Below, piece after piece: positions 1-12,034 of a stretch of DNA of 12,034 bases (position 1 is its first letter; each line of letters opens with the position of its first letter). This DNA is from Promethearchaeota archaeon (lineage in GTDB: Archaea > Asgardarchaeota > Lokiarchaeia > Sigynarchaeales > SOKP01), in assembly GCA_030668025.1 (NCBI GenBank), contig DAOUUT010000098.1, forward strand, positions 1 to 12,034, written 5' to 3'. The translations under genes were made by a program, and so were the position numbers. The notes beneath the pieces were generated by a model, which ran no database searches, was not told the DNA's origin, and worked only from the letters and a program-made list of their open reading frames with translations.

Positions 1-1
1 A

Positions 2-2428
2 GAAATAGAAGAATACAAAGATCATCAACAAGAATTAGAAGAAATTCTCGAACAAAATAGAAAAATCGAACAAGAAGCTCTCAAGGAAATCGAGCTAGGA
101 GAAGAAGATTTGGATAAAACTATAGAAAAAAACTACGAGAGAGCTAAAAACCTCTATAAACAACAAACCGGGAAAAGACCAATTTATGCGAACAAGGAAA
201 CAAAAGGATTTAAAAAGTGGTTAGAGCAGAAAAAAAAATCGGAAGAAAAAGAGAAAACGAAACGGAAAAAAGAACTAAAAGAAGAAAAAAAAAAAGAAAT
301 TAAAAAAGAGGGTTGGAAAAGAACCCTTAAACGATGGATAAAAGAGGCTTCCGAGGAAGAATGCAACGCTGAGCTTAAATCCGAGTTAAAGAAAGCCCTT
401 GAGAGTTATAACGAGTTCGAGTATTTGACTCGAAAGTTTTTGGAATTATATAAGAAGTCTCAACACGAAAAACTTACTGAAATTGAAAAGAATAGATTAA
501 AATCCTTAACAGAAAGACTACAGGAGCTAAGTCCGATCCAATTAGAATTATTAGAAAATATTCGGGCTTTTAAATTTTATTTTAATAATCATTTGTGGGA
601 ACTTATGAACAGGTTTTTTGCTAATCGAGTGCGTAGCAAATTTTTTAAGCATATCTCGCAAATATATAAAAACTTAAAGCAAGCTCAGAAAAAGAAAGAA
701 AATTCAGAAGAAGTACTAAGAAATTGGATAGAGCAAGCGTCCGAAGAGGAAATTAGTCCCGAACTTAAAGCGAAGTTAAAAAAAATCGTTGAGAACTATA
801 ACGAGTTAGAAATATTGGCATCAATGTTCGTGGAATTGTATAAAAAAGAGCAATTAGAACAAATCTCTCAGTCTGAAAAAGTGGAATTATCCTCCTTAAT
901 TAAAACTCTCCAAAAAATCGAACCCGGTAAAATTGAACTATTCTCAAACATACGGGCCATTAAACATTATTTAAATGATCAAAATTTTGACGATTTCTCG
1001 GACAAAACAAGGGTGAATCGACTGCTTAGCGGGTTTTTTGCACATTTGGAGCAAATTTCTTATAATACTAAAGATTTAATTGAAGATTTAAGAAAGGAAA
1101 TACAACAACTTTCCGAAGAATTAGCACAGTTCTTTCCAGGTAGATTAGTGCAAAAAAAGGGTAATTCGTATTCACATCGACTTCTTTCTCAATTGTGGGA
1201 AATGAGTGCAAGTTATGTTGGTGGATATGTGATATACAAGGCTAAGCAAAATTCAAATTTTATTATTGGTGAGGAAGCATTGGTGCAATTGCAAGAAAAA
1301 TTAGAGGAGAGATTGGGTGCTAAAGCACTAGGATGCGTTCAAATTATTAGAAGATATCAAAGGAATGAAATAAACACTCTTCAATTTGTAGACATGTTAG
1401 AAAAAGAATTAGGAAGAGTTTCAGGTGAAATCAAGGTTACTAATGAAGAACTTAGTTTGATTCTTGCAGGGACACATAGTTTTATTAAAAGAGTTCTTTC
1501 TCGTATTTCTCCATCTTCCAGACAAAAAAATATTAATCCTCATTACAAATTTTCAAAAGAACGATTAGACCAATTTAGAAACTTTCTTTTTGAGATATTT
1601 GGATCTCGAGCAAAGAAGTGTTTCGATCTGCTTGAAAGATACAAGAGTCTAAACCCTGATTTAAAAGAATATTCATACCAGCAGTACACAATAGGAACCC
1701 CTGATTACTTCCAAAATATTGAGGAAAGTCCAGAAGCATCCTATTGGTTTGGTTTTTTGCGTGCTGATGGCTCTCTAAACGAAAAAACTTATAGAATAAG
1801 TTTTGAGCTCGCAGAAAAAGATAAAGATCGCTTAAAACAATTTGCTGAAGCTATAGAATTACCCTTAGACCGTATTAAGTTTCGTACAAGATACAAGTGG
1901 TATAAAGGGGTGTTAAAAGGATATAAAACTGGTTATCTTAATTTCACTTGTAGACCAATGGTGAAGGAATTCGGCGAAATCGGATTCCAGAGCTCTAAAG
2001 CTGATCAAAAATATGTACCAAATTATGTAGTACAAGCTCTCAAAAAGGCAAAAGAAACATCAAGGGAAACACACATTGATTGGTGGTTAACTATACCCGG
2101 AAAAGTCGCTTTAGCGTTTCTTCTTGGTTTCTACGATGGTGATGGAACTTATAGAAGAGTTAGGTTTGCAAAGATTTACGCAAGCAGTAAACCATTTTTA
2201 GAACATATTAAAGAATTATTTGAGATAAAAAACAAAGTTTTAACAACAAAGGAACCCGGAGAAGTTATTTGGGAGTTAGACAGCAAATACATATCAAGAG
2301 GTATGTATACGCTTACTTTAGGTCCTGAATTGTTTGATATGATGATGAGTTCTTACAAAGATAGCATGCAAAGGAAGCGATCAGATAATCCTGCAGAACC
2401 ACTAAATTTTCAGGGCGATCAGATTTAA
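2..2428 (+). CDS. Coiled-coil protein with C-terminal LAGLIDADG endonuclease domain (5' end missing)
   Basis: The frame is open to the left edge of the window, so the gene starts outside it; the TTG at 110 is only the first start-like codon. Residue numbers here count from that TTG (772 residues to the stop). The first ~70 residues are a very Lys/Glu-rich helix, then come two copies of a ~117-residue helical module (73-189 and 203-319), a helical middle with another weak duplication (388-416 and 483-511), and a LAGLIDADG domain from about 535. Motif P1 reads YWFGFLRADGSL with Asp553; motif P2 reads LLGFYDGDGTY with Asp676 and Asp678. Two motifs about 125 residues apart fit a single-chain, two-repeat LAGLIDADG enzyme with both acidic metal-binding positions kept. 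No intein splice junction is seen: the protein ends in a plain tail. It could be a free-standing homing endonuclease, or a domesticated DNA-binding protein with a scaffold-like N-terminus. The domain call is firm; the role is not known. Confidence 0.8.
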   Translation, partial: EIEEYKDHQQELEEILEQNRKIEQEALKEIELGEEDLDKTIEKNYERAKNLYKQQTGKRPIYANKETKGFKKWLEQKKKSEEKEKTKRKKELKEEKKKEIKKEGWKRTLKRWIKEASEEECNAELKSELKKALESYNEFEYLTRKFLELYKKSQHEKLTEIEKNRLKSLTERLQELSPIQLELLENIRAFKFYFNNHLWELMNRFFANRVRSKFFKHISQIYKNLKQAQKKKENSEEVLRNWIEQASEEEISPELKAKLKKIVENYNELEILASMFVELYKKEQLEQISQSEKVELSSLIKTLQKIEPGKIELFSNIRAIKHYLNDQNFDDFSDKTRVNRLLSGFFAHLEQISYNTKDLIEDLRKEIQQLSEELAQFFPGRLVQKKGNSYSHRLLSQLWEMSASYVGGYVIYKAKQNSNFIIGEEALVQLQEKLEERLGAKALGCVQIIRRYQRNEINTLQFVDMLEKELGRVSGEIKVTNEELSLILAGTHSFIKRVLSRISPSSRQKNINPHYKFSKERLDQFRNFLFEIFGSRAKKCFDLLERYKSLNPDLKEYSYQQYTIGTPDYFQNIEESPEASYWFGFLRADGSLNEKTYRISFELAEKDKDRLKQFAEAIELPLDRIKFRTRYKWYKGVLKGYKTGYLNFTCRPMVKEFGEIGFQSSKADQKYVPNYVVQALKKAKETSRETHIDWWLTIPGKVALAFLLGFYDGDGTYRRVRFAKIYASSKPFLEHIKELFEIKNKVLTTKEPGEVIWELDSKYISRGMYTLTLGPELFDMMMSSYKDSMQRKRSDNPAEPLNFQGDQI
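326..676 (+). repeat. Protein-level tandem module, copy A
   Basis: First copy of a helical module in the LAGLIDADG-containing protein (residues 73-189 from the TTG at 110). It aligns with copy B at a constant offset of 130 residues without gaps over most of its length. Shared signatures are W-I-x-x-A-S-E-E-E, E-L-K-x-x-L-K-K, Y-N-E-x-E, E-L-Y-K-K and N-I-R-A-x-K-x-Y. The DNA copies have diverged, so the duplication is old. Confidence 0.8.
716..1066 (+). repeat. Protein-level tandem module, copy B
   Basis: Second copy of the same helical module (residues 203-319). It starts L-R-N-W-I-E-Q-A-S-E-E-E against L-K-R-W-I-K-E-A-S-E-E-E in copy A and ends with a matching F-F-x-H-x-x-Q-I segment, where the offset becomes 131. 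A short Lys/Glu-rich linker separates the copies. Confidence 0.8.
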
Positions 2429-2532
2429 ATACAATTTTTCTCGAATCTAAAAATTCAATATAGGTAATATCTTACGTTCATAGTACATTTTTGTAACTCA
2501 TCGTTTTTAAATAAATGCTTCATTAGATATTG

Positions 2533-2542
2533 AAAAAAAAAA
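2533..2542 (-). terminator. T10 tract downstream of the dehydrogenase gene
   Basis: A run of ten A on the plus strand reads as ten T on the minus strand, 27 nt after the stop of the minus-strand dehydrogenase. Archaeal RNA polymerase terminates at T-rich tracts without needing a hairpin, so this is a reasonable terminator. Shorter T runs in the same 141-bp convergent gap could serve the plus-strand gene. Confidence 0.5.
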
Positions 2543-2569
2543 GATAGTAATTTTTAATTAATGAAAAAG

Positions 2570-3745
2570 TTATTTCCTCATTTTAACGAATTCGCCTGAT
2601 TTCATCAATTCGCAAGGTCTAAGATAATCTTTTCCCGTTTTATCCGCTAAATCCTCTAAAATTTTAATCCATTTCTCCCAATTCTTTTTAGCAGCAGCAA
2701 AGGGTCCAGGCGTGTTCATACCCGCCATGTTTGCTTCGTCAATTACCTTAAAGCCTGATACAACTTTCTCTTCTAATAGACGACATCCCTCGTTTAACAT
2801 AATTGCCATTGAAGTTTCAACGCTAAATAGACCTGCTTTTTTAGATTTATCGACCTTTGGTCGTCCTTTAGACCAATCATAAAAACCTTGAGTTGTTTTA
2901 CGGCCAAGTTTCTTGTCTTCAACCATCTTGGTAAGAACTTTTCCAGGTCTAAAATTAGGAGACAATGTTTTTGTGTAATAATTACCCACATGGAACATGG
3001 TATCGAGTCCTACGTAATCCGTTAACTCACACGGTCCCATTGGCATCAAAGACCCCGCATCACCGTCAATTTGTTCCCAGGGAATTCCTTTTTCAGCAGC
3101 CTGATCAAATATCCAATTCATATAAATTTGGACTGGTGCATTCATTCTGTTAACAATAAATCCAGGTCTATCCTTCAATACTTTAGGAACAAATCTCTTT
3201 CCCCTTAAACAAGGTAAAGATTGACCTATTTGAACGCCTATATCCATTGATTCGTCCGAACTTTGTTCACCAGCTATTATCTCAATTAATCTCATGAGAA
3301 TCGGTGGATTAAAGAAATGCATTCCAATTACTTTATCTGGTCTATTTGTTGCTGTAGCAATTTCAGTAATGCTCATCGTAGAAGTATTTGTGGCTAAAAT
3401 ACAATGAGCTGGTGCGTTTTCGTCGCAAGTTTTAAAAACTTTTTTTTTGACGTCCATTAATTCAACAACAGCTTCTAACACAAAATCAGCGTCTTTTACT
3501 GCGCTTGCCGTATCTATAGTTTTTTTTAATTTTCCCATAAAATCAGCGGCAGAAACACCCTCCCCTAACTTTCCTTTGGCTTCAAGTTTTTTTAACCCTT
3601 CATCTATTTTAGCAACTCCATTATCAACGAATTCGTCTTTAATATCAACTAATGTTACGTTATAACCTCCCATTAGAAAGATTTGCCCGGCATTATGGCC
3701 CATTAGACCAGCACCAATAATAACAATGTTTTTAACATCAACCAT
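2570..3745 (-). CDS. 3-hydroxyacyl-CoA dehydrogenase, stand-alone (391 aa)
   Basis: NAD-dependent oxidation of (S)-3-hydroxyacyl-CoA to 3-oxoacyl-CoA, a cytoplasmic step of fatty-acid beta-oxidation or of acetyl-CoA condensation pathways. Residues 7-16 carry the Rossmann dinucleotide motif IVIIGAGLMG. The catalytic set is intact and correctly spaced: Ser122 in N-T-S-T, His143 in G-M-H-F-F-N-P-P, Glu155 twelve residues later, and Asn199 in D-R-P-G-F-I-V-N-R. The helical C-terminal half (about 195-391) contains GPCELTDYVGLDT and KLGRKTTQGFYDW, as in this family. There is no fused enoyl-CoA hydratase domain, unlike bacterial FadB/FadJ. The length is somewhat above the ~300 residues of simple enzymes, with a short insertion before the D-R-P-G-F motif and a longer tail. 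ATG start with a TATA-like box about 30 nt before it. No acyl-CoA partner genes are adjacent, so the direction of use cannot be told. Confidence 0.93.
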   Translation of the reverse strand: MVDVKNIVIIGAGLMGHNAGQIFLMGGYNVTLVDIKDEFVDNGVAKIDEGLKKLEAKGKLGEGVSAADFMGKLKKTIDTASAVKDADFVLEAVVELMDVKKKVFKTCDENAPAHCILATNTSTMSITEIATATNRPDKVIGMHFFNPPILMRLIEIIAGEQSSDESMDIGVQIGQSLPCLRGKRFVPKVLKDRPGFIVNRMNAPVQIYMNWIFDQAAEKGIPWEQIDGDAGSLMPMGPCELTDYVGLDTMFHVGNYYTKTLSPNFRPGKVLTKMVEDKKLGRKTTQGFYDWSKGRPKVDKSKKAGLFSVETSMAIMLNEGCRLLEEKVVSGFKVIDEANMAGMNTPGPFAAAKKNWEKWIKILEDLADKTGKDYLRPCELMKSGEFVKMRK

Positions 3746-3769
3746 TTTTGTTTTTCAACCTTTTATTTT

Positions 3770-3779
3770 TAATTATATT
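3770..3779 (-). promoter_or_regulatory. TATA-like box of the dehydrogenase gene
   Basis: Read on the minus strand, an AATATAATTA-like element lies 25-34 nt before the ATG at 3745. This is the right distance for a leaderless or nearly leaderless archaeal transcript. The surrounding DNA is so AT-rich that chance matches are easy. Confidence 0.35.
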
Positions 3780-3849
3780 CTTATTTTAATATTTTTCATA
3801 ATCAGATTGTAATAAGTAAATTAATTCGAATTTTTTTTTAACTTTTGAC

Positions 3850-3875
3850 ATTTTGTTTTTCAAAAAGTACAAAAT
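3850..3875. repeat. Imperfect inverted repeat
   Basis: The outer arms ATTTTGT (3850-3856) and ACAAAAT (3869-3875) pair perfectly. The inner arms TTTT (3857-3860) and AAAA (3862-3865) pair around a single C, with AGT bulged on the right side. It lies between two divergent genes, so it could be an operator, but it is low-complexity DNA. Confidence 0.4.
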
Positions 3876-3885
3876 AATGATCCAT

Positions 3886-3905
3886 TTGAATATAATTGAA
3901 TATAA
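3886..3905. repeat. Two tandem copies of TTGAATATAA
   Basis: An exact 10-bp unit is present twice in a row (3886-3895 and 3896-3905). Each copy contains a TATA-like core and could contribute a promoter for the plus-strand side, although the acetyltransferase start is 150 bp further on. It may be no more than low-complexity sequence. Confidence 0.5.
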
Positions 3906-4056
3906 TGAAAAAACGGATCTCTACTTTTAAATATAATACGGAGATTAATTCTAATCCTTCCATGATCAGAAGAATTTTATACCTCGTTTATTAATCATAT
4001 AGTTTAAATTTTCATTTTCATAAAGTTTATTTATCAAATTTAAATTATAAAAAAAA

Positions 4057-4551
4057 TTGTCTACAAAACAATTCGTCCCTGATGATTTCGATATCCCCGC
4101 CTTCTTCGAGACAGACCGTTTCCGCCTACGAATGTTGTCCGTAGATGATGTCGAAAAAGATTACGAAGCTGTTATCGAGAGCCGGGAGCTCCTTCATACC
4201 ATGTTTGACGGTTCCTGGCCGAGATCAGGATTCACCCTTGAAGAAAACTTTCTCGACCTGGAAAGGCACCAACAAGAGTTCCTCGACCACAAAGCTTTTG
4301 CTTATACGGTCGTATCCCTTGACGAAACAAAAGTTCTTGGCTGTATCTATATCAACCCGCCCCAAAAATATAGCCATATTCCGGAATTTGTTGAATATTG
4401 GAAAGAGACTGGCTCAGATGCCGTTGTGTTCATGTGGGTGCGTCAAACTGAATATGATAAAGGGCTGGACGAGATATTGTTCCATACTGTAAGGGATTGG
4501 ATCAGCGCAGACTGGCCTTTTAGGAAGGTAGATTACCCCGGTAGAGTATAA
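4057..4551 (+). CDS. GNAT-family N-acetyltransferase (164 aa), likely acquired
   Basis: Acetyl-CoA-dependent N-acetyltransferase fold; the substrate is not predictable. The first strand is E-T-D-R-F-R-L-R-M-L (18-27), followed by helix 1 with D-D-V-E-K-D-Y-E-A-V and the segment F-T-L-E-E-N-F-L-D-L-E-R-H. The central strands are F-A-Y-T-V-V and V-L-G-C-I-Y-I (81-99). The acetyl-CoA loop region is degenerate, V-R-Q-T-E-Y-D-K-G-L-D-E (128-139), without the usual Q/R-x-x-G-x-G/A. The end W-P-F-R-K-V-D-Y-P-G-R looks like a natural family C-terminus. The frame has no ATG before codon 26 (4132), which would delete strand 1. The TTG at 4057, three codons after an in-frame stop, is therefore taken as the start. 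Codons are clearly richer in G and C (TTC, CTC, GAC, CGG) than in neighbouring genes, which suggests transfer from a donor with higher G+C. It stands alone, with no operon partner. Confidence 0.82.
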   Translation: MSTKQFVPDDFDIPAFFETDRFRLRMLSVDDVEKDYEAVIESRELLHTMFDGSWPRSGFTLEENFLDLERHQQEFLDHKAFAYTVVSLDETKVLGCIYINPPQKYSHIPEFVEYWKETGSDAVVFMWVRQTEYDKGLDEILFHTVRDWISADWPFRKVDYPGRV

Positions 4552-4558
4552 GTAGTAA

Positions 4559-4711
4559 AGGGTCAAACCAAACTTGGGCGCTAAACCCCTTAAGATTAGG
4601 GTCAGAACGGATTTCCCCTTAAAGCGTGTTGCTCATCGGGATGATTTCATCGAATACAAGGAATCTAGGTGTGGAGAAAAGCACACAGAGAAAAAATCAT
4701 TAATATATTAA
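4559..4711 (+). other. G+C-richer remnant region with a 50-codon open frame lacking a start codon
   Basis: After the acetyltransferase stop, G+C-richer sequence continues to about 4690 and then drops sharply. One frame stays open for 50 codons (from after the stop at 4556-4558 to the stop at 4709-4711), but it has no ATG and no recognised motif. The octamer CCCCTTAA occurs twice, and GATGA/TCATC form a small inverted repeat near 4640-4651. It could be the tail of the segment that brought in the acetyltransferase, or a decayed gene. I see no functional element. Confidence 0.3.
4701..4710 (+). promoter_or_regulatory. TATA-like box of the small hypothetical gene
   Basis: TAATATATTA followed by an A-run lies 32 nt before the ATG at 4743. 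With archaeal TATA-to-start spacing of about 25 nt, transcription would begin around 4730. That lies downstream of the alternative TTG at 4722 and favours the ATG. Confidence 0.45.
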
Positions 4712-4742
4712 AAATTTCAATTTGAGTAGTGTCATACATTGC

Positions 4743-5075
4743 ATGAAAGATAGGAAAGAAAAAATTATAGATGAACACTTGGTGCAGCGGGTGATTGATC
4801 TTGATACAGGTAAAGTTATAACGGGAGAATACATTAATCAAAGATTAAAAGAACTTGATAAGATTGCAGATATGATAATTGACAAAGCATTCCAAAATTT
4901 TCGAAAAGATAGTAATAAAAAAACGGAAATCTATGAAGAGGCCTACTGGCAAATCCATGAAAAATTAGGAATGGGATCGATTGGCCCCGCTACAGCTGCA
5001 GCTGGTCCATTAATGGAGAAAAAAAAACAAAAATTGGCTAAAGTACTAGAAATACGTTCTAAAGATCTTTTGTAA
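4743..5075 (+). CDS. Small hypothetical protein (110 aa)
   Basis: Not recognised. A soluble, charged, mostly helical protein with no signal peptide or membrane segment. The N-terminal part includes L-V-Q-R-V-I-D-L-D-T-G-K-V-I-T-G-E-Y-I (about residues 12-30). Next come an amphipathic helix rich in Lys/Asp, Y-E-E-A-Y-W-Q-I-H-E-K-L, and then a small-residue segment M-G-S-I-G-P-A-T-A-A-A-G-P-L (about 81-94) before a basic C-terminal helix. The Gly/Ala-rich stretch is unusual in an otherwise polar protein and may be a turn or contact site. The ATG at 4743 is preferred over the in-frame TTG at 4722 because of the upstream TATA-like box. The stop is only 6 bp from the stop of the convergent V4R-like gene. 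Typical AT-rich codon use supports a real resident gene. Confidence 0.65.
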   Translation: MKDRKEKIIDEHLVQRVIDLDTGKVITGEYINQRLKELDKIADMIIDKAFQNFRKDSNKKTEIYEEAYWQIHEKLGMGSIGPATAAAGPLMEKKKQKLAKVLEIRSKDLL

Positions 5076-5081
5076 TTTCAT

Positions 5082-5639
5082 TTATACTTTATCAGAGTTG
5101 TGATAAAAAATCAATTCTTCTACACACACATTTTTTTCAGGTTCGTCTTTGAGAAAGTTAATCTCTATTTTTTTAACTTTATTTCCTAATAATTTTCGGA
5201 AGGCCGTTTCAAAATAACCTTTGTTGACTCGGCAAAACGCTTTCCCGGGTTGTAGTTTTTCTCTGCGTTTACTTGGCTCTCTTAAAAAGCAAAAATTTTC
5301 GATTATTATTCTAGTCTGATCTGGATTTAATTGAACTTCTCTAATTTGTATTGAATAAAAATCTTTCAATTCGGTTATTAAGATTTCTAAAGCTTCAAAG
5401 ATTCCAAATTCTTCCTTGTTATGCTTTTCTTTTATCCTTTTAGCAATTATCTCTCCCGGTCCTGATCCTGTCTGATACAACATTGAAAGCAAACTATTCT
5501 TACCGAAAATATCAAGGATTTTATAAACCATTGATTCACAGATTATTTCAAACCCTTTTAACGATTTAATATTCGAACTATCATTTTGAATCTTTTTATT
5601 TATATCATTTAAAATATCTTCATTTATTTCAATTTCCAA
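5082..5639 (-). CDS. V4R-like (4-vinyl reductase / hydrocarbon-binding fold) protein (185 aa)
   Basis: The second half resembles the V4R small-molecule-binding domain. Y-Q-T-G-S-G-P-G-E-I-I-A-K (55-67) matches its glycine turn. P-G-K-A-F-C-R-V-N-K-G-Y-F-E-T-A-F (131-147) matches the late strand-helix with its Cys-containing entry. K-K-I-E-I-N-F and N-V-C-V-E-E-L-I-F-Y (156-179) match the final strands. The usual E-x-x-C before the last strand is missing (Glu-Ile-Asn-Phe here), while Cys172 is kept. Stand-alone V4R proteins are sensor or ligand-binding modules, often in signalling or regulation; the ligand here is unknown. Residues 1-45 are helical and unassigned. The frame has only a TTG start at 5637-5639; an AGGGGA stretch lies about 8 nt before it. 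No closer start exists before the next upstream stop, so the TTG is likely used. Recognition is by motif pattern and needs a profile search. Confidence 0.55.
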   Translation of the reverse strand: MEIEINEDILNDINKKIQNDSSNIKSLKGFEIICESMVYKILDIFGKNSLLSMLYQTGSGPGEIIAKRIKEKHNKEEFGIFEALEILITELKDFYSIQIREVQLNPDQTRIIIENFCFLREPSKRREKLQPGKAFCRVNKGYFETAFRKLLGNKVKKIEINFLKDEPEKNVCVEELIFYHNSDKV

Positions 5640-5766
5640 AGAGCAATCCCCTAAATCTACGATAATAATTTTATTCGTTAATAATCTTAATTAATAATTT
5701 AAACTTGAAACTAAATAAATGTTTAATTCCAATTAAAAAATTAAGTATGGTTTTATAAATAAAGTT

Positions 5767-5784
5767 ACATTTTTTGAAAAATGT
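5767..5784. repeat. Perfect 8-bp inverted repeat
   Basis: ACATTTTT and AAAAATGT flank a 2-nt spacer, forming a hairpin or a dyad operator. It lies between the end of the macro-domain gene and the start of the V4R-like gene, both on the minus strand. It could end transcription of the former or bind a regulator of the latter. Confidence 0.45.
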
Positions 5785-5828
5785 CTTATTTAAAGAACAA
5801 AATACTATTATGTCTTAATATTGGGGAA

Positions 5829-6309
5829 TTAAGCTATATCATTTAATGCGTTTTCAAAATCCTTATAATCAGGTAATGATTCAAGACAAACTGAGATGTT
5901 TCTCAAATTGTTGGGGCTTTCTAAAACGAACTTCTTAATAGTAGGAATTATTATTCCTGCACAAATCTTTGCGTTAAATCCGACTACTTCTTTCGATATT
6001 GGAGGATAAGCGATTGAATTTATCCCCTCTTTATCGGCTAATTTCAGCGAATTCCAGATCGCTAACATCAATTTTTTTTGATCGTGACCTGCTCTTAAAT
6101 GGATAATAAATTTAGCATTTAAATTGCCACCAGTAGTAATTACATTCTACTTGTACTTTATGACCCGCTTCTTTCAATACTCGACATCTTAAGGTACCAC
6201 TAGGCAAAAGTCGACTATTTGTAGGAATGACAATTGCATTGTAGTCAGCATTACTTATATCGCCGATAAAAACTTCTATAACCGTGTTATTGATCGTTAG
6301 TTGATTCAT
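5829..6309 (-). pseudogene. Macro-domain (ADP-ribose-binding) protein gene broken by a frameshift
   Basis: Macro domains bind ADP-ribose and often remove it from proteins or hydrolyse O-acetyl-ADP-ribose. The first frame (6309 down to the stop at 6112) encodes the amino half: I-E-V-F-I-G-D-I-S-N-A-D-Y-N-A-I-V and P-T-N-S-R-L-L-P-S-G-T, the ligand-binding Asp and Asn-containing loops, then K-E-A-G-H-K-V-Q-V-E-C. The second frame, open from 6146 to 5829, continues with V-I-T-T-G-G-N-L-N-A-K-F-I-I-H, the next core strand, and then S-I-A-Y-P-P-I-S and the final helix. The switch falls between about 6149 and 6138 and is equal to one extra base (or two lost). About ten residues usually found between the Cys and V-I-T-T seem absent, so a small deletion is possible. 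The joined length is about 160 residues, close to a single macro domain. Either a young pseudogene or an assembly indel. A TATA-like box precedes the ATG. Confidence 0.8.
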
Positions 6310-6326
6310 TAAAATATTTTTTAATA

Positions 6327-6335
6327 TTTTTATAC
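6327..6335 (-). promoter_or_regulatory. TATA-like box of the macro-domain gene
   Basis: On the minus strand GTATAAAAA lies 18-26 nt before the ATG at 6309, consistent with a leaderless archaeal transcript. Its presence suggests the gene is still transcribed or was broken recently. Confidence 0.4.
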
Positions 6336-6429
6336 AATTTTTCTAATAATATCAATTATTTTTAACATTATCTTTAATTTAAATAGGCTGATTGCGAGGG
6401 TTTCTACAAAAATGTAAGTATTTGAAAGC

Positions 6430-6448
6430 AGCCTAAACAAGTTTAGCT
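6430..6448. repeat. Small hairpin at the end of the first phosphatase gene
   Basis: AGC-C-TAAAC and GTTTA-GCT pair around AA with one bulged C, overlapping the last base of the stop codon of the minus-strand phosphatase gene. It could mark the 3' end of the two-gene transcript. No long T-run follows immediately, so the terminator role is weak. Confidence 0.3.
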
Positions 6449-6933
6449 TATTGATTTATGCGTTTAACTTTCTTAACGAGCGCCTCTACGTTTTTTTCGA
6501 CGATTTCTAATATTTCATCGTATCGTTTTTTCTCAGTTTTATAAGGATCTGGAATGTTTATATCCTTTTTATCGGCCCCATTAAATTCTTTCAAAGTATA
6601 TAATTTCTGTTTTAATTGTTCTTGTAAATCTCTAAATCGATTTTTAACTTTTGTTAAATGATATCGTTCCATACCGATTATAAGATCTTGGTCTTCTATC
6701 AATTCTCTTGTTATGACTTTAGGTTGAAAATCACTTATTTCAATACCTTTTGATTGTATATAATCTATTGTCTCTGGTTGAGCGTAATCAAACGCATTGT
6801 GCCATCCCGCAGAATCGAAGAGAACTCCTTGTAAATCGTATTTTTTACCGTAAAAGTTCGCCAGATGTTCTGCTGCGGGCGAACGACATGTGTTTGCGTA
6901 ACATATAAACAGAATTCGTTTTATTTTCGCCAT
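6448..6933 (-). CDS. Low-molecular-weight protein tyrosine phosphatase-like protein (161 aa), variant P-loop
   Basis: Soluble phosphatase of the LMW-PTP family, which hydrolyses phosphotyrosine through a cysteinyl-phosphate intermediate. The P-loop C-Y-A-N-T-C-R-S (11-18) has the nucleophile Cys11, Arg17 and Ser18. The usual third residue Gly (C-x-G-N-x-C-R-S) is Ala13, which may tighten the loop. The general acid is Asp129 in I-P-D-P-Y. S-A-G-W (41-44), the typical strand end, is present. The length matches the family (~150-165). Apart from Cys11 and Cys16 there are no other cysteines, so the thioredoxin-linked arsenate reductase variant is unlikely. It follows its paralogue at 6953-7438 with a 19-bp gap on the same strand, so the two are probably co-transcribed and arose by tandem duplication. 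Phosphatase activity is inferred; the Gly-to-Ala change leaves some doubt. Confidence 0.88.
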   Translation of the reverse strand: MAKIKRILFICYANTCRSPAAEHLANFYGKKYDLQGVLFDSAGWHNAFDYAQPETIDYIQSKGIEISDFQPKVITRELIEDQDLIIGMERYHLTKVKNRFRDLQEQLKQKLYTLKEFNGADKKDINIPDPYKTEKKRYDEILEIVEKNVEALVKKVKRINQ

Positions 6934-6952
6934 TTTTGCTCTTACTAATTAG

Positions 6953-7438
6953 TTAGAGTTCGGTTTTATTTATCCGAATTATTTTATTAATCATTTTTTC
7001 GATATTTTCATCAATTATTTTAAGAATTTTCTGGTAAGTCTTAGTGCTGGCGTAATACGGATCTATTATATCTAAATCATCAGTTTCCCCGTTAAATTCT
7101 TTTAAAGTAAACATATTTTTATTGATATCACTAATATCAGGATAAGTTTCTCTAATATCATTAGCATGTGATCTTTCCATCGTAATAATTAAGTCTTGCC
7201 TTTCAAGTAGTTTACGATTGATTATTTGCGGGCGAAAATCAGAGTGTTTAATACCCTTTGAACTTAAATATTCTTGAGATTCAGGTTGCATATATGAAAA
7301 TGCGTTTATAAAACCAGCACTCTCAAACTTTAAATCAGTATTATACTTTTTTGCATAAAATTTGGCTAAGTATTCCGCTGCGGGACTTCTTGCGGTGTTT
7401 CCTAAACAAACGAGAAGAATTTTTTTGATTTTGTTCAT
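6953..7438 (-). CDS. Low-molecular-weight protein tyrosine phosphatase-like protein (161 aa), single-Cys P-loop
   Basis: Paralogue of the gene immediately downstream, same length and layout. The P-loop C-L-G-N-T-A-R-S (11-18) keeps Cys11, Gly13, Asn14, Arg17 and Ser18 but has Ala16 where most family members have a second Cys. That Cys protects the nucleophile from oxidation by forming a reversible disulfide, so its loss predicts a more oxidation-sensitive enzyme, acceptable in an anaerobe. The general acid is Asp126 in I-I-D-P-Y-Y, and the tandem tyrosines resemble the regulatory Tyr pair of eukaryotic LMW-PTPs. Cys11 is the only cysteine, which rules out a thiol-relay arsenate reductase. ATG start; it is the first gene of a two-gene minus-strand unit with its promoter in the 260-bp divergent region. 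Confidence 0.9.
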   Translation of the reverse strand: MNKIKKILLVCLGNTARSPAAEYLAKFYAKKYNTDLKFESAGFINAFSYMQPESQEYLSSKGIKHSDFRPQIINRKLLERQDLIITMERSHANDIRETYPDISDINKNMFTLKEFNGETDDLDIIDPYYASTKTYQKILKIIDENIEKMINKIIRINKTEL

Positions 7439-7698
7439 TAATATTCAAGTATTAAAATAAATTGGAAAAAATAAACTTTACTTCATTTAAAATCATATGA
7501 AGATCTCTGTATGTGTCTAATCTATTAATAAAGATTTTTAAAATATTGCAAATAAAGAATTTAAATATTATAATATCATTAATAAAGATTAATATTGAAG
7601 AGAATGAAATCGTTATAAGAAATTTTAAGATAAAACATTACAGAAAAGTATTAAATTAAAATATAGCTTGTATTAGTATTAAATCAAAAAAAAGTTGA
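7439..7698. promoter_or_regulatory. Divergent AT-rich control region between phosphatase pair and transporter
   Basis: This 260-bp region separates the minus-strand phosphatase pair from the plus-strand transporter and has no gene-like frame. An exact 13-bp direct repeat, ATTAATAAAGATT, occurs at 7524-7536 and 7578-7590, 54 bp apart centre to centre. An AAATATAG element at 7658-7665 lies about 33 nt before the transporter ATG and could be its TATA box. The repeats could be regulator sites shared by both directions, or low-complexity chance. Confidence 0.4.
7524..7590. repeat. 13-bp direct repeat ATTAATAAAGATT (two copies)
   Basis: Exact copies lie at 7524-7536 and 7578-7590 in the divergent intergenic region. 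The G-containing AAAGATT core makes them less trivial than pure A/T runs. The 54-bp spacing is about five helical turns, compatible with two protein sites on one DNA face. Confidence 0.5.
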
Positions 7699-9351
7699 AT
7701 GATATTAATGAAAAAGGAATCCCTAAAGAATTGGTTTGTAAGAGTATTTGCTAGAGATATAGACTTGCCAAGAAACTCATTAGTTTATTTATTTTTCTCT
7801 CTTTTAGCAATTTTCTTAGTTATTGAGGCTTTTTTATACAAATATGTTGTTTTAACAGAAATGGTTTTAGTTATAGGTCTTGATATAGGTATAGTATTCT
7901 TTATAATAGCGATTAGTTTCCTAACCTCAGTTATGCTTATTGATAAAATAAAGAGAAGAACAAGGCATTTTAATATAACTTTGCTTTTTTGTATAATAGG
8001 TATTTTTTTTAGTGCTTTTTCTGAAGTTATTTTACATTATCTAGGTTTATTAATCGTATTAATAACGGTTCCTCAATTAATAGCATTATGGTTTACAATA
8101 TTAGTTCATGAGACTAATATTTTAAATAGGGGAAGGATGACTGCTTTTCTTATGGCTTCATGTTCCCTTTTAGGCTGGATTAGTGTTATTTTTGTATCTT
8201 TTGAATATTTGTACTACTATTTTTTTATTTTAGAATCAATACTTTTAGTAATAATTTTTTGGTGTTCGAGGAAATATAAATATATAGAAACTGATGAGAG
8301 ACTCAAATCTGATAAGAAATTTAAGAATATTATTTTTGAAAAGCAATTTTTTCGGTATTCATCTAGTTTCACAATCTTAAGCTTTGTTTTAGGGGATCTT
8401 CTAGCACGATATGGTTTTGATGTAGATTTTTTTATATTTTTTTTGGCAGGCACAATATACCTCATCGCAGCGGGTTGTTTTTTAGATAATATAGGTAGAA
8501 AAACCTCAATAGTATTAGGGATTTTAGTTCTATCGTTTTTTCTTATATCTTATGGTTCTTATATAGATGCAACTATCATATTTGGAATGCCAAGACAAGT
8601 TTTTCTTTCTATTCATTACGGGCTTTCGTTACTACCTCTTGTACTTGCAATCCAAACTGTATCTGGAGATTTTTCAACAGAAAGGGGAAATTTAAAATAT
8701 AGAGGTCGTATCAATGGTCTTTTTTACGCTTTAATGTTTTTGGGAATTATTATTGGTTTTATTTTTAGTACATGGATAAATGGTTTGTATATACTTTATC
8801 CAGAATTTAATAATTTCATCCCTAATTTTCCAAATCTCTTAAATGGGTTTGTTATAGTTATTCTTCTTGTATGGATGATGGCTATGAAAGAAACTTTAAT
8901 ATCTAAAGAAAAAAATTGGCCATCAGCAATGGTAAATCTTTATGTTTTTAGTGTTCATGGAGTTGGGCTTTACTATCATAATTTCGAGAAAAGTCCCAAA
9001 GGAGAAGAAGCAGAGAAGAAGAGAGAGATGGATGAAGATCTTATTTCTGGAGCATTGACCGGTGTTGTGGCCATCATTTCTGAAATAACTCAAAGCAAAA
9101 AACAGTTAAGAAAAATTGACAAGGAGGGTTATCATCTTCTATTCTCTTTTGGAAAATACCACGTTGTCTGTATAATTTCAACAATGGATTTACCAGTGTT
9201 ATTAAAGAAACTTGATGAGTTTTCAAAAGATTTTGAAATAAAATTCGGGAAGGAACTTAAAAATTTTGTAGGAAATGTTAGTCCTTTTGAATCTGCAAAA
9301 TATCTTATAGATAAATATTTCAATCAGAAATATGGGTTTTTTTTTAAGTAA
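7699..9351 (+). CDS. MFS-like 12-helix membrane protein with C-terminal longin-like domain (550 aa)
   Basis: Two parts. Residues about 28-396 form some twelve hydrophobic helices in two sets of six: 28-47, 54-80, 93-110, 113-135, 150-168, 171-190, a charged loop at 191-219, then 221-237, 243-262, 269-289, 300-320, 337-359 and 378-396. The loop after helix 8 reads G-C-F-L-D-N-I-G-R-K (259-268), the major facilitator G-x-x-x-D-x-x-G-R-K signature. The matching loop in the first half (I-D-K-I-K-R-R-T-R) is degenerate. Residues about 410-545 are soluble: V-N-L-Y-V-F-S-V-H-G-V-G-L-Y-Y, a helix D-L-I-S-G-A-L-T-G-V-V-A-I-I, then Y-H-L-L-F-S-F-G and H-V-V-C-I-I-S, and a closing helix F-S-K-D-F-E-I-K-F. 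This beta-beta-alpha-beta-beta-beta-alpha order fits a longin-like fold; such domains abound in Asgard archaea and bind small GTPases in eukaryotes. The substrate is unknown. Phosphatase genes lie on both sides. ATG at 7699 or 7708; both keep the whole protein. Confidence 0.78.
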   Translation: MILMKKESLKNWFVRVFARDIDLPRNSLVYLFFSLLAIFLVIEAFLYKYVVLTEMVLVIGLDIGIVFFIIAISFLTSVMLIDKIKRRTRHFNITLLFCIIGIFFSAFSEVILHYLGLLIVLITVPQLIALWFTILVHETNILNRGRMTAFLMASCSLLGWISVIFVSFEYLYYYFFILESILLVIIFWCSRKYKYIETDERLKSDKKFKNIIFEKQFFRYSSSFTILSFVLGDLLARYGFDVDFFIFFLAGTIYLIAAGCFLDNIGRKTSIVLGILVLSFFLISYGSYIDATIIFGMPRQVFLSIHYGLSLLPLVLAIQTVSGDFSTERGNLKYRGRINGLFYALMFLGIIIGFIFSTWINGLYILYPEFNNFIPNFPNLLNGFVIVILLVWMMAMKETLISKEKNWPSAMVNLYVFSVHGVGLYYHNFEKSPKGEEAEKKREMDEDLISGALTGVVAIISEITQSKKQLRKIDKEGYHLLFSFGKYHVVCIISTMDLPVLLKKLDEFSKDFEIKFGKELKNFVGNVSPFESAKYLIDKYFNQKYGFFFK

Positions 9352-9439
9352 TTTATAATTGAAATCGAATTATTTTAAGGATTTTGTTATAAAGGGTGAA
9401 TATTAAAGTGTAATAAATTTATTTCCTTAAAGAAAAATC

Positions 9440-9450
9440 TTTTTTTTTTT
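9440..9450 (+). terminator. T11 tract downstream of the transporter-longin gene
   Basis: Eleven T in a row lie about 90 nt after the stop, followed by another T-rich stretch before the convergent phosphatase gene ends at 9467. This is a typical archaeal intrinsic terminator. Confidence 0.55.
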
Positions 9451-9466
9451 ATTTCTTTTCCTGATT

Positions 9467-9970
9467 TCAGTTATCTTTAGAATTATTAATTTTGATAATC
9501 TTTTCAATGGATTTAATTATCCCATTTTCGATTCTTTTAAGAACTTTATTATATTCATTTTCCTCTAAATAAAAAGGATCTTCTATTTCTAGATTTTCAG
9601 TTTCACCAGCAAATTCTAATAGTAAAAAGAGCTTTTCATCCAGATCCTTTAAATGCTTGAATTTTCTCTTTAATTTTCGAACATGATATTTCTCTTCAAA
9701 ACATAGAATAAGGTCTTGTTTAGAAATTAGTTCATCATCGATATCCTTGGCTTGAAAATCGTCCATTTCAACACCTTTAGATTTAAGATATTTTAATGTA
9801 CCTTCTTGAGGTTGCTCAAAATAATGGTAAATTCCGGCAGAATCAAAGTATACATCTTTTAATTCATCTTTATGTCTCGTCTGTTGTATCCATTTCGCAA
9901 AATATTCAGCAAAAGGTGATCTGCAGGTATTACCACTACATAAAAAAAGTATATTTTTAATTTTAAGCAT
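9467..9970 (-). CDS. Low-molecular-weight protein tyrosine phosphatase-like protein (167 aa), canonical P-loop
   Basis: Third LMW-PTP paralogue in the window and the one with the fully canonical loop, C-S-G-N-T-C-R-S (11-18): nucleophile Cys11, protective Cys16, Arg17, Ser18. The general acid is Asp131 in E-D-P-F-Y. F-D-S-A-G (42-46) is conserved. It is slightly longer than the other two because of a charged insertion near residues 30-38 (T-R-H-K-D-E-L-K-D). One more cysteine (Cys90) sits in I-L-C-F, where the other paralogues have I-I-G-M or I-I-T-M; it could matter for redox chemistry, but the Cys pair of thioredoxin-linked arsenate reductases is not reproduced. It is transcribed alone, convergent with the transporter-longin gene and divergent from nadB. 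ATG start at 9970. A function in protein dephosphorylation is expected, with targets unknown. Confidence 0.92.
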   Translation of the reverse strand: MLKIKNILFLCSGNTCRSPFAEYFAKWIQQTRHKDELKDVYFDSAGIYHYFEQPQEGTLKYLKSKGVEMDDFQAKDIDDELISKQDLILCFEEKYHVRKLKRKFKHLKDLDEKLFLLLEFAGETENLEIEDPFYLEENEYNKVLKRIENGIIKSIEKIIKINNSKDN

Positions 9971-10026
9971 AATCTAAACCACAAAATGTAAATAAACAAA
10001 AATAAATTATTATTCTATTCAAAAAG

Positions 10027-10036
10027 ATATATAAAA
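10027..10036 (+). promoter_or_regulatory. TATA box of nadB
   Basis: ATATATAAAA preceded by AAAAAG (BRE-like purines) lies 41 nt before the ATG at 10077. Transcription would begin near 10060, upstream of 10077, which supports translation from that ATG and not from the internal ATG at 10175. Confidence 0.5.
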
Positions 10037-10076
10037 ATAATTTCATTTTGCTATTTTAAGATATTTTGGTAAAAAC

Positions 10077-11671
10077 ATGGGGTTTGAAAAAATATTTCTT
10101 TAAAACTTAAGACGGGGTTCTTAATAATCGGAGGAGGCATTTCAGGTCTATCTTTAGCCATTAACTTAGCAAAGATGGTTCCTGAGGAGGATATATTATT
10201 AATTACCAAAGAAAAATTATCAGAATGCAACACTTTTTATGCTCAGGGTGGAATCGCATGTGTGCGGGATAAAAATGATAGTTTTGAGAAACACATTCAA
10301 GACACATTAATCGCTGGTGATGGGCTTTGTGATGAAGAGGTTGTAAGGTTAATTGTATCAAAGGCGCCTGAAAGAATTGATCAACTAATTGAGATGGGGG
10401 TTGAATTCTCAAGGAATAATGAGGGGGAATATGATCTTGGAAAAGAAGGGGGTCACTCTGAAAGAAGAATTCTTCATGTAAATGATTTAACAGGGCAGAA
10501 TATAGAGCTTAGGCTTATCGAAAAAGTAAAAAAAATTCCAAATCTTCAAATTAAAGAAAATTGGTGTGCGATCAATTTATTCTGTAATAATTTTAGATGT
10601 GATGGCGCTTACGTATTAGATCAAGAGAGTGAAGAAATATACAATATTTCTGCTAAATCTACAATTTTAGCGACTGGAGGCGCCGGTAAGATTTATCTTT
10701 ATACCACAAATCCAGATGTTGCCTCTGGAGATGGAATTGCAATGGCATATCGTGCTGGAGCGATAATTGCTAATATGGAATTTTATCAATTTCATCCTAC
10801 TTGTCTTTATCACCCCTTTGCTAAATCATTTTTGATAACGGAAGCCATGAGAGGGGAAGGTGCTGTTTTAAAAGATATTAAAGGCAATGAATTTATGGAA
10901 AAATATCATCCATTAAAGGAATTAGCACCACGAGATATTGTATCACGAGCAATTGATAGAGAACTTAAACGAACTGGAGATGACCATGTAGTATTAGATT
11001 TTGCATCATATAGAAGTCCTGACTTTATTAAAAGTCATTTTCCAGGCGTTTACGAGCAATGTAAATTATTTAATATCGACATTACTAAAGAACCAATACC
11101 CGTTGTCCCAGCAGCTCATTATAGTTGTGGAGGTGTACTTGTCAAAGTCAATGGTTCTACAAAAGTAAAAAATCTCTATACGATCGGAGAATCATCCTGT
11201 ACGGGATTACATGGTGCTAATCGATTAGCAAGTAATTCTTTATTAGAAGGATTAGTATGCGCATATGAGTGTGCTAAAACACTTGCGAAAAAGACAAAAG
11301 ATCTGAAAATCAACGAATTTAAAAAATGGGAACCCGGTCATGCCGTACCCTCTACAGAAGCGGTTATAATAACACAGAATTGGGACGAAATAAGAAGATT
11401 CATGTGGAATTACGTTGGAATTGTCCGAACGGATAAGCGTCTTCAAAGAGCTAAAAAAAGAATTAATATGCTCCTGGACGAAATCAATCAATATTATTGG
11501 GATTTTAAAATAGAAAAAAATCTTGTTGAACTTAGAAATTTGGCTACTGTCGCAAAAATAATAATAGTAAGTGCTATAAGCAGGAAGGAGAGCCGAGGAA
11601 TCCATTACAATTTAGATCATCCAAATAAATCTGAAATGAGTAGAGCTACTACAATAAGAAGACCGTGGTAA
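10077..11671 (+). CDS. nadB: L-aspartate oxidase, frame interrupted near the start
   Basis: Flavoenzyme that oxidises L-aspartate to iminoaspartate, first step of NAD synthesis from aspartate; anaerobes can use fumarate instead of oxygen. The FAD-binding strand L-I-I-G-G-G-I-S-G-L-S-L-A lies at 10121-10159. Further signatures, numbered from the internal ATG at 10175: F-Y-A-Q-G-G-I-A (21-28), E-G-G-H-S-E-R-R-I-L-H (91-101), M-E-F-Y-Q-F-H-P-T (201-209), T-E-A-M-R-G-E-G-A (222-230), A-P-R-D-I-V-S-R-A-I-D (251-261), P-A-A-H-Y-S-C-G-G-V (312-321) and G-A-N-R-L-A-S-N-S-L-L-E-G-L (347-360). G-G-H-S-x-R-R-I-L-H marks NadB rather than succinate dehydrogenase. The glycine motif lies upstream of the ATG at 10175, in a frame with no ATG, GTG or TTG back to a stop at 10085. 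The ATG at 10077 is out of frame; one extra A in the run at 10087-10092 would join it and give about 531 residues, the normal length. No nadA or nadC is in view. Confidence 0.93.
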
Positions 11672-11696
11672 TTTGAATCCAAATATTGGTAAGAAA

Positions 11697-11716
11697 TGTT
11701 TTAATTGTTATTTTTT
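11697..11716 (+). terminator. T-rich tract after nadB
   Basis: A T-rich stretch ending in six T lies 25-45 nt after the nadB stop. A small stem (ATTTG at 11671-11675 with CAAAT at 11680-11684) begins at the last base of the stop. Together they could end the nadB transcript before the next gene, which has its own TATA-like box. Confidence 0.35.
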
Positions 11717-11794
11717 CGAGAATAATCTGATATCGATAATCCTATTGGTTATTTAAATAGGTTTTTATTTAAAGATTAAATATGTATAAGGGAG

Positions 11795-11803
11795 TTATAT
11801 AAT
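11795..11803 (+). promoter_or_regulatory. TATA-like box of the radical SAM-like gene
   Basis: TTATATAAT lies 19-27 nt before the ATG at 11822, the spacing of a leaderless archaeal transcript. This suggests the gene is not simply co-transcribed with nadB. Confidence 0.45.
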
Positions 11804-11821
11804 AATTAGGAATTAAAAATC

Positions 11822-12034
11822 ATGATTGAAGAAATAATTAGAAATACAACAAGTATTTGTCCAGAATGCCTACAACCAGTTCCTGCTGAGATTTATGTTG
11901 ATGCAAATATGGGTTGGGTTATGATGCGAAAGCATTGTGAGGAACATGGAGATTTTAAAGATAAAATTTCGATTAATCCAGAGGAATACAAATGGAACCA
12001 GAGTTTCACTAATGAGATTGGTTCAACTATAGAT
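11822..12034 (+). CDS. N-terminal part of a Tes-like radical SAM protein (71 codons, truncated by window end)
   Basis: Only the first 71 residues are visible; the frame runs off the right edge. They contain I-C-P-E-C-L-Q-P-V-P-A-E-I-Y (12-25) and M-M-R-K-H-C-E-E-H-G-D-F (34-45). This C-P-x-C-L ... C-x-E-H-G-x-F pattern is a rubredoxin-like Cys cluster (Cys13, Cys16, Cys39) at the amino end of a group of archaeal radical SAM proteins that includes tetraether lipid synthase (Tes), which joins archaeol chains into GDGT membrane lipids. The radical SAM C-x-x-x-C-x-x-C motif would lie further on and is not in the window, so the enzyme class is inferred from this pattern alone. Relatives of Tes with other roles share this segment. 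ATG start supported by the TATA-like box. Confidence 0.65.
   Translation, partial: MIEEIIRNTTSICPECLQPVPAEIYVDANMGWVMMRKHCEEHGDFKDKISINPEEYKWNQSFTNEIGSTID

Follow-up and report, generated by a model that had tools for sequence, protein, structure and literature searches.

The longin domains of TRAPP and MON1 act with Rab GTPases (PMC10933270), and the proteins that carry them are soluble subunits of Rab-activating complexes. The same report, as far as its text was available, describes longin, roadblock, and TRAPPC3 proteins of Asgard archaea as well as GTPases to which a longin or roadblock domain is fused; the words "transmembrane" and "transporter" do not occur in its main text, and membrane-attached longins are not described in the available passages (PMC10933270). 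In the accessible portions of other studies, longin domains were reported to be enriched in Ca. L. ossiferum (PMC9834061), longin was mentioned once, in the introduction, in a survey of Asgard transporters (PMC7997004), and the word was absent from the main text of PMC10307638. A literature search, with most subscription papers and bioRxiv outside its coverage, yielded no description of a major facilitator superfamily (MFS) carrier with a fused longin. Here, we analyzed a stretch of 12,034 nucleotides from a Promethearchaeota archaeon (contig DAOUUT010000098.1 of assembly GCA_030668025.1, positions 1 to 12,034 of the forward strand), referred to below as the window. On its plus strand, a single gene (7699..9351) encodes a 550-residue protein in which a twelve-helix MFS part is followed by a cytosolic tail. 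The tail belongs to the same archaea and fold class as the described Asgard proteins and is very probably a longin-type domain.

The extent of the gene was supported by its open reading frame (ORF) and by its homologues; the start codon is possibly at 7708, as many relatives begin at the residue aligned with M4. The protein had 125 homologues at E ≤ 1e-3, of which the best 120 were examined, and every source name among these that states an organism belongs to what we take to be an Asgard lineage. In a named genome collection, 25 fusion loci were found, all titled Lokiarchaeota or Lokiarchaeia and one a contig-end fragment; together with the window they form a set of 26 loci. Because this architecture recurs in the 125 homologues and the 25 Lokiarchaeal loci, the fusion is no assembly artefact. 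The searches for the fusion and for the tail family covered the Asgard phylum. Some part of the protein was matched in all 58 Asgard genomes searched, and in at least 28 of them, among the matches listed, one alignment covers at least 380 residues of both parts, with three genomes (G012, G033, and G046) entering this count solely through rows with one internal stop codon. The closest genome of the searched collection shares 27% of sampled 31-mers with the window. An earlier note on this DNA, made from the sequence alone, had described a transporter with a longin-like tail and suggested that archaeal genomes be searched for the same fusion, which was thus found to be widespread.

We next examined the membrane half, which the earlier note had taken for a 12-helix major facilitator at residues 1-396. 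In the full-length AlphaFold2 model, built on a 48-row alignment (predicted local distance difference test [pLDDT] 76.9; predicted template modeling score [pTM] 0.68), 12 membrane helices, the number typical of the MFS, span residues 25-405, and the MFS part was delimited as residues 25-403 (7771..8907). Comparison of the whole model with the PDB by Foldseek listed 50 matches, all with MFS titles except 9d7x, whose title is uninformative; the top match was 6g9x (E 2.8e-7), followed by NorA, VMAT, G6PT, SV2A, YajR, and others. Conservation was counted over 48 sequences, selected from the best 120 homologues together with the window protein. Motif A in loop 8-9 (G259-x3-D263-x2-G266-R267-K268; residues 259-268, 8473..8502) lies exactly where it had been placed from the sequence and is invariant (48/48). 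The corresponding motif in loop 2-3 (residues 77-86, 7927..7956) is degenerate, with D82 kept in 48/48. In the charge cluster of loop 10-11 (residues 324-337, 8668..8709), D324 and R335 are present in 48/48 and E328 in 47/48, and in loop 4-5, R144 and R146 are present in 48/48 and E138 in 44/48. Polar residues are also kept within the helices (E43, 42/46; R219, 47/48; H306, 46/48). We read this pattern as an apparently intact gating apparatus, the conserved MFS loop motifs presumably having gating roles, and predict that the protein is a working MFS-type carrier. Lys and Arg residues number 25.8 per protein on average on the presumed cytosolic side versus 5.3 outside, an approximately five-fold bias. 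Therefore, the N-terminus and the tail are placed in the cytosol, in agreement with the earlier proposal.

The tail (residues 407-550, 8917..9348) was modeled by AlphaFold2, within the full-length protein, as strands beta-1 (411-418) and beta-2 (423-428; together 8929..8982), helix alpha-1 (446-463; 9034..9087), strands beta-3 to beta-5 (472-475, 478-484, and 488-494; 9112..9180), and helices alpha-2 (499-521) and alpha-3 (529-541; together 9193..9321). This beta-beta-alpha-beta-beta-beta-alpha-alpha order, with no N-terminal helix and two C-terminal helices, is that of longin domains as defined in the available text of PMC10933270, and it had already been noticed in the letters of the sequence. 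The best profile matches of the tail were TRAPPC1/Bet5, TRAPPC4/Trs23 (Sybindin), and MON1 (Fuz_longin_1), whose strand/helix order also fits. When E values up to 1 were admitted, 29 of the 34 family tails hit Sybindin (best E 2.5e-5) and 15 of them hit Fuz_longin_1 (best E 9.1e-4). A profile of 50 tails searched against the PDB retrieved TRAPPC1 (E 0.0018), Trs23 (0.013), and a fly TRAPP subunit (0.063), then MON1 (0.2 and 0.22) and BET5 (0.26), with apolipoprotein A-I trailing at 0.31; the family profile A1 retrieved only TRAPP chains (E 0.15 and 0.71). For 50 diverse tails (alignment A5, consisting of 49 of 88 non-redundant tails and the window tail), the best 25 of 43 Pfam families were headed by Sybindin (12/50), Intu_longin_1 (6/50), and Fuz_longin_1 (4/50). 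Every longin-family match lay under its single-protein cut-off and was weak alone; for Sybindin, the window tail scored 18.3 bits against a cut-off of 25, and no match above this cut-off was found in eight genomes. Searches of PDB sequences with the whole protein or the tail alone and of NCBIfam with the window protein gave no match, and NCBIfam matches of the 50 tails were scattered, with at most three members per family. Taken together, the kinship of the tail with the longins of TRAPP and MON1-CCZ1 appears weak but consistent.

Neighboring classes of the fold fit the tail less well. Small TRAPP subunits are free-standing, and the domain described here is joined, in the homologues, to a 12-helix part. 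An R-SNARE is incompatible with a protein that stops nine residues past alpha-3, leaving no room for a SNARE motif. Roadblock/LC7 domains have a helix ahead of strand 1 and end in a single helix, in place of the two C-terminal helices of the model; Robl_LC7 was absent from the 18 families matched by the 34 family tails and occurred in 2 of the 50 diverse tails (best E 0.076).

The distribution of the tail was surveyed at loci L046-L155 from 13 Asgard genomes, a selection from a longer match list. The 123 domains collected were reduced to 109 unique ones, of which 103 were tested after five with a short upstream region and one whose match starts too deep in the profile were dropped. In 79 of the 103, a membrane-helix-like stretch was found within 60 residues upstream, versus 12.7% of 5,000 random positions in 165 control ORFs. 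This helix was not built into the survey, since the query was cut after the last helix of the carrier. Tails were found on multi-helix proteins of ~330-440 residues, on long proteins with one or two predicted helices, and on some proteins without a nearby helix. Many of the surveyed domains come from one genome, G055. This genome (5.8 Mb; L053, L061, L073, L076-L081, and L141-L155) has 61 tail matches at E ≤ 1e-5, and the other 12 have 1-21 each. We take as our most general result that the tail is a juxtamembrane longin-type module of Asgard proteins and is not private to transporters. The earlier note was right on the parts of the protein and had seen one case of this wider class; its further idea, that the tail regulates transport and couples it to GTPase signaling or membrane organization, is a hypothesis.

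We then examined the surroundings of the tails for GTPase genes, a check that the earlier note had proposed. A Ras-family gene stands divergently beside the MFS-longin gene in 3 of the 26 loci (L033, L035, and L043; the two neighbors scanned matched Pfam Ras at E 1.1e-41 and 1.9e-42), and these represent one or two events by descent. GTPase genes were not enriched near the tails: the 199 kb that flank the 109 unique domains contained four Walker A GTPase genes and one locus with two short fragments, versus 3.5 expected from a control of 7 in 400 kb (20 hand-picked stretches at round coordinates in 8 of the 13 genomes). As flank counts match the control, linkage to GTPases by gene neighborhood received no support. 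Its absence is to be expected, and a physical link would still be possible, because GTPase genes of MK-D1 generally lie outside the operons of roadblock, longin, and TRAPPC3 genes, according to the available text of PMC10933270. Separately, a long tail-bearing ORF in G055 (L078:1191-6449) has a Ras-type GTPase gene a few bases downstream on the same strand; L053 and L078 are the same place, and the pair counts as one case.

Comparison among the fusion loci indicated that carrier and tail can have separate histories. L033 and L043 are close to the window in NadB (96-98% identity) and in the downstream phosphatase (85-86%). Their carrier halves, however, are 54-56% identical to that of the window and 81-84% to those of L035 and L036, whereas their tails are 80% identical to that of the window and 63-65% to those of L035 and L036. 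The carrier tree rejects a grouping of L033 and L043 with the window set (approximately unbiased test, p 7e-38), whereas the tail tree joins them to it (99/96); the case against the carrier grouping from the tail data is not firm (p 0.07), and the groups for these topology tests were picked after the identities were known. L023 follows the same trend relative to the window (NadB, 96%; carrier, 66%; tail, 89%). In the simplest reading, recombination would have replaced the carrier while the tail was retained. Tandem paralogues occur at 6 of the 26 loci, and all but one of the six second copies fall into a single clade, as might be expected if two different tails pair. In the second copy of L032, the carrier stands beside those of L038 and L044 (100/100) and the tail beside that of L027 (98/78).

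The best explanation, toward which we lean, is that the protein is a working MFS-type carrier whose last helix leads, on the cytosolic side, into a longin-type domain that docks a partner. The tail would pair with another longin, supplied either by an identical molecule or by a tandem paralogue, and a small GTPase or an adaptor may dock on the surface of the pair. The partner would most likely be another longin and possibly a small GTPase. Docking might allow the cell to place, cluster, or gate the transporter or to read its state. That the tail docks a GTPase of the Ras superfamily is possible, if hardly to be presumed; the idea is plausible by kinship and not from these genomes, because it is the TRAPP and MON1 longins that act with Rab GTPases. 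Direct control of transport by the tail is doubtful. In favor of this explanation, MFS_1 above its cut-off and the tail occur in a single ORF in the relatives of G043, G055, and G056, and just under it in G025; the fusions of L079, L092, and L094 exceed the cut-off, and that of L089 reaches 32.4 bits. Several observations weigh against the docked-carrier explanation. Pfam MFS_1 matched the window protein at 28.1 bits (E 1.2e-6) against a cut-off of 33.4. The model of the tail alone is weak (pLDDT 54.8), and alpha-1 has a pLDDT of ~45-52 even in the full model. The survey query was itself a juxtamembrane tail and may favor like members, and the lack of GTPase genes around the tails belongs to the same side.

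Three other readings concern the protein itself. The tail, as a member of the wider roadblock/longin/GAF superfamily, could sense small molecules or redox state, and ligand binding would then gate the carrier without any GTPase. The fold comparison of the low-confidence tail-only model, in which profilins and phytochromes are among the matches, points this way, as do the lack of GTPase enrichment and the placement of longins in the PAS/GAF superfamily in the part of PMC4917890 available. However, the profiles lead to longins of complexes that act on GTPases, and neither PAS nor GAF families appear in the listed matches of the 34 tails or, in the best 25 of 43 families, of the 50 tails; we regard a sensor as unlikely. 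The tail could also lack any signaling role and keep two carriers together as a folding or dimerization cap or as a sorting tag, which would agree with its position immediately after the last helix in membrane proteins of many kinds and with the tandem paralogues. The combination of a native tail with a differing carrier in L033, L043, and L023, albeit in few events, suggests instead a partner outside the carrier, which makes this alternative improbable. Finally, the MFS part may have ceased to transport and may instead anchor the longin in the membrane or act as its receptor, a reading favored by the sub-threshold MFS_1 score and by the related tails of proteins predicted to have one or few helices. 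The invariance of D82 and of motif A in loop 8-9, the near-invariance of the other charge clusters, and the polar residues kept within the helices argue against it, and we consider it very unlikely.

The genes around the fusion raised a further alternative, namely that low-molecular-weight (LMW) phosphatases work with the transporter and control it by dephosphorylation. On the minus strand, outside the fusion, two LMW-phosphatase genes (6448-6933 and 6953-7438) lie on one side of it and a third (9467..9970) on the other; such genes are present at 20 of the 26 loci, on both sides in 19. The three positions correspond to three separate clades, and of the LMW-phosphatases of four genomes, the site holds 3/5 in G010, 3/5 in G015, 2/2 in G021, and 2/5 in G001. 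We at first favored the partnership because of the 20 loci and because few such enzymes are present per genome. However, in 12 (L237-L248) of 15 loci from other relatives, the two phosphatase genes on the borders of the site are adjacent, with no transporter between them; one of the two is inverted in L248. The idea was dropped on these transporter-free sites and is now, in our estimate, highly improbable, because relatives that keep the phosphatases side by side without the transporter deprive them of value as evidence for its function. In addition, at 6 of the 26 loci, a transporter is present without a phosphatase gene in the DNA examined: L030, L031, L034, L040, and L042 carry it elsewhere, and L045, the contig-end fragment, has no phosphatase gene upstream. 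We read the transporter gene as accessory at a shared site. In L237 (G006), it was probably lost and the gap is probably a deletion scar, because the gap holds two adjoining exact 17-base matches to the DNA upstream of the transporter gene and to its last bases. In L250 (2706-2987), the carrier half is missing, and the phosphatase genes enclose a 94-residue relic of the tail with 67% identity to window residues 456-549; in L249 and L251, one side of the site is visible only.

Other features of these loci were also recorded. In L040, two DUF6125 genes (5106-5615 and 7751-8302) flank the MFS-longin gene in the usual places of the phosphatases. Of 46 members of the LMW-phosphatase family, 43 have Thr at position five of the P-loop; in bacterial enzymes, Thr at this position goes with phosphoarginine specificity and Ile with phosphotyrosine specificity, according to the available text of PMC8001253. 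In the window, a gene on the minus strand (5082-5639) encodes a 185-residue protein with three conserved cysteines. This protein, which may be a divergent V4R/TRAPPC3-like domain, has relatives in 40 of 77 Asgard genomes. V4R matched 3 of 15 members of this family (best E 0.067), and hhalign gave P 0.0017 with a probability of only 15% (decoys, P 0.28-0.71); a profile search of the PDB retrieved CFAP20-type chains only (best E 0.019). As part of a TRAPP-like cluster, this neighbor was set aside, since the matches are weak and the gene is present in all 12 transporter-free loci, and it is kept as a lead. A macro-domain gene (5832-6342, minus strand), a single ORF in relatives, is split over two frames (5832-6146 and 6115-6342), a frameshift that is either decay or sequencing error. 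A long charged ORF (2-2428, plus strand), open at the window start, ends in a LAGLIDADG_3 homing-endonuclease-like domain (E 3.7e-6). In the window, ARAGORN detected no tRNA gene, and no Rfam family reached its gathering score.

The 79 helix-adjacent tails offer a concrete place to seek GTPase recruitment at the archaeal membrane, and if they bind GTPases, marking of membranes by a longin and a GTPase would predate compartments. In a broader scheme, which we consider rather unlikely, Asgard membranes would be marked on the cytosolic face by longins anchored behind carrier or receptor helices as landing pads for GTPases, the transporter being nutrient-sensing or a sorted cargo; such a system would have preceded the free-standing longin pairs of TRAPP and MON1-CCZ1, the longin having come loose. 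Unlike the TRAPP and MON1 longins, the domain described here is covalently joined to a 12-helix carrier, and its matches to their families stay below the cut-offs. The longin SNAREs Sec22, Ykt6, and VAMP7 likewise carry a longin on a membrane protein, and Sec22b (1ifq) was a weak fold match of the tail. In these SNAREs, the longin is N-terminal and is followed by the SNARE motif, whereas here it is C-terminal and no SNARE motif is present. YajR of Escherichia coli, an MFS carrier (3wdo, rank 26 among the Foldseek matches listed), has a cytosolic C-terminal soluble domain of a fold that differs from longin. A possible working analogue is SLC38A9 with Ragulator and the Rag GTPases, in which the cytosolic end of a transporter meets a roadblock-type platform and GTPases; 6wj2 was among the fold matches of the tail. 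SLC38A9 differs in belonging to another transporter family, in its N-terminal tail, and in its separate platform, and the two are likened by function, not by homology.
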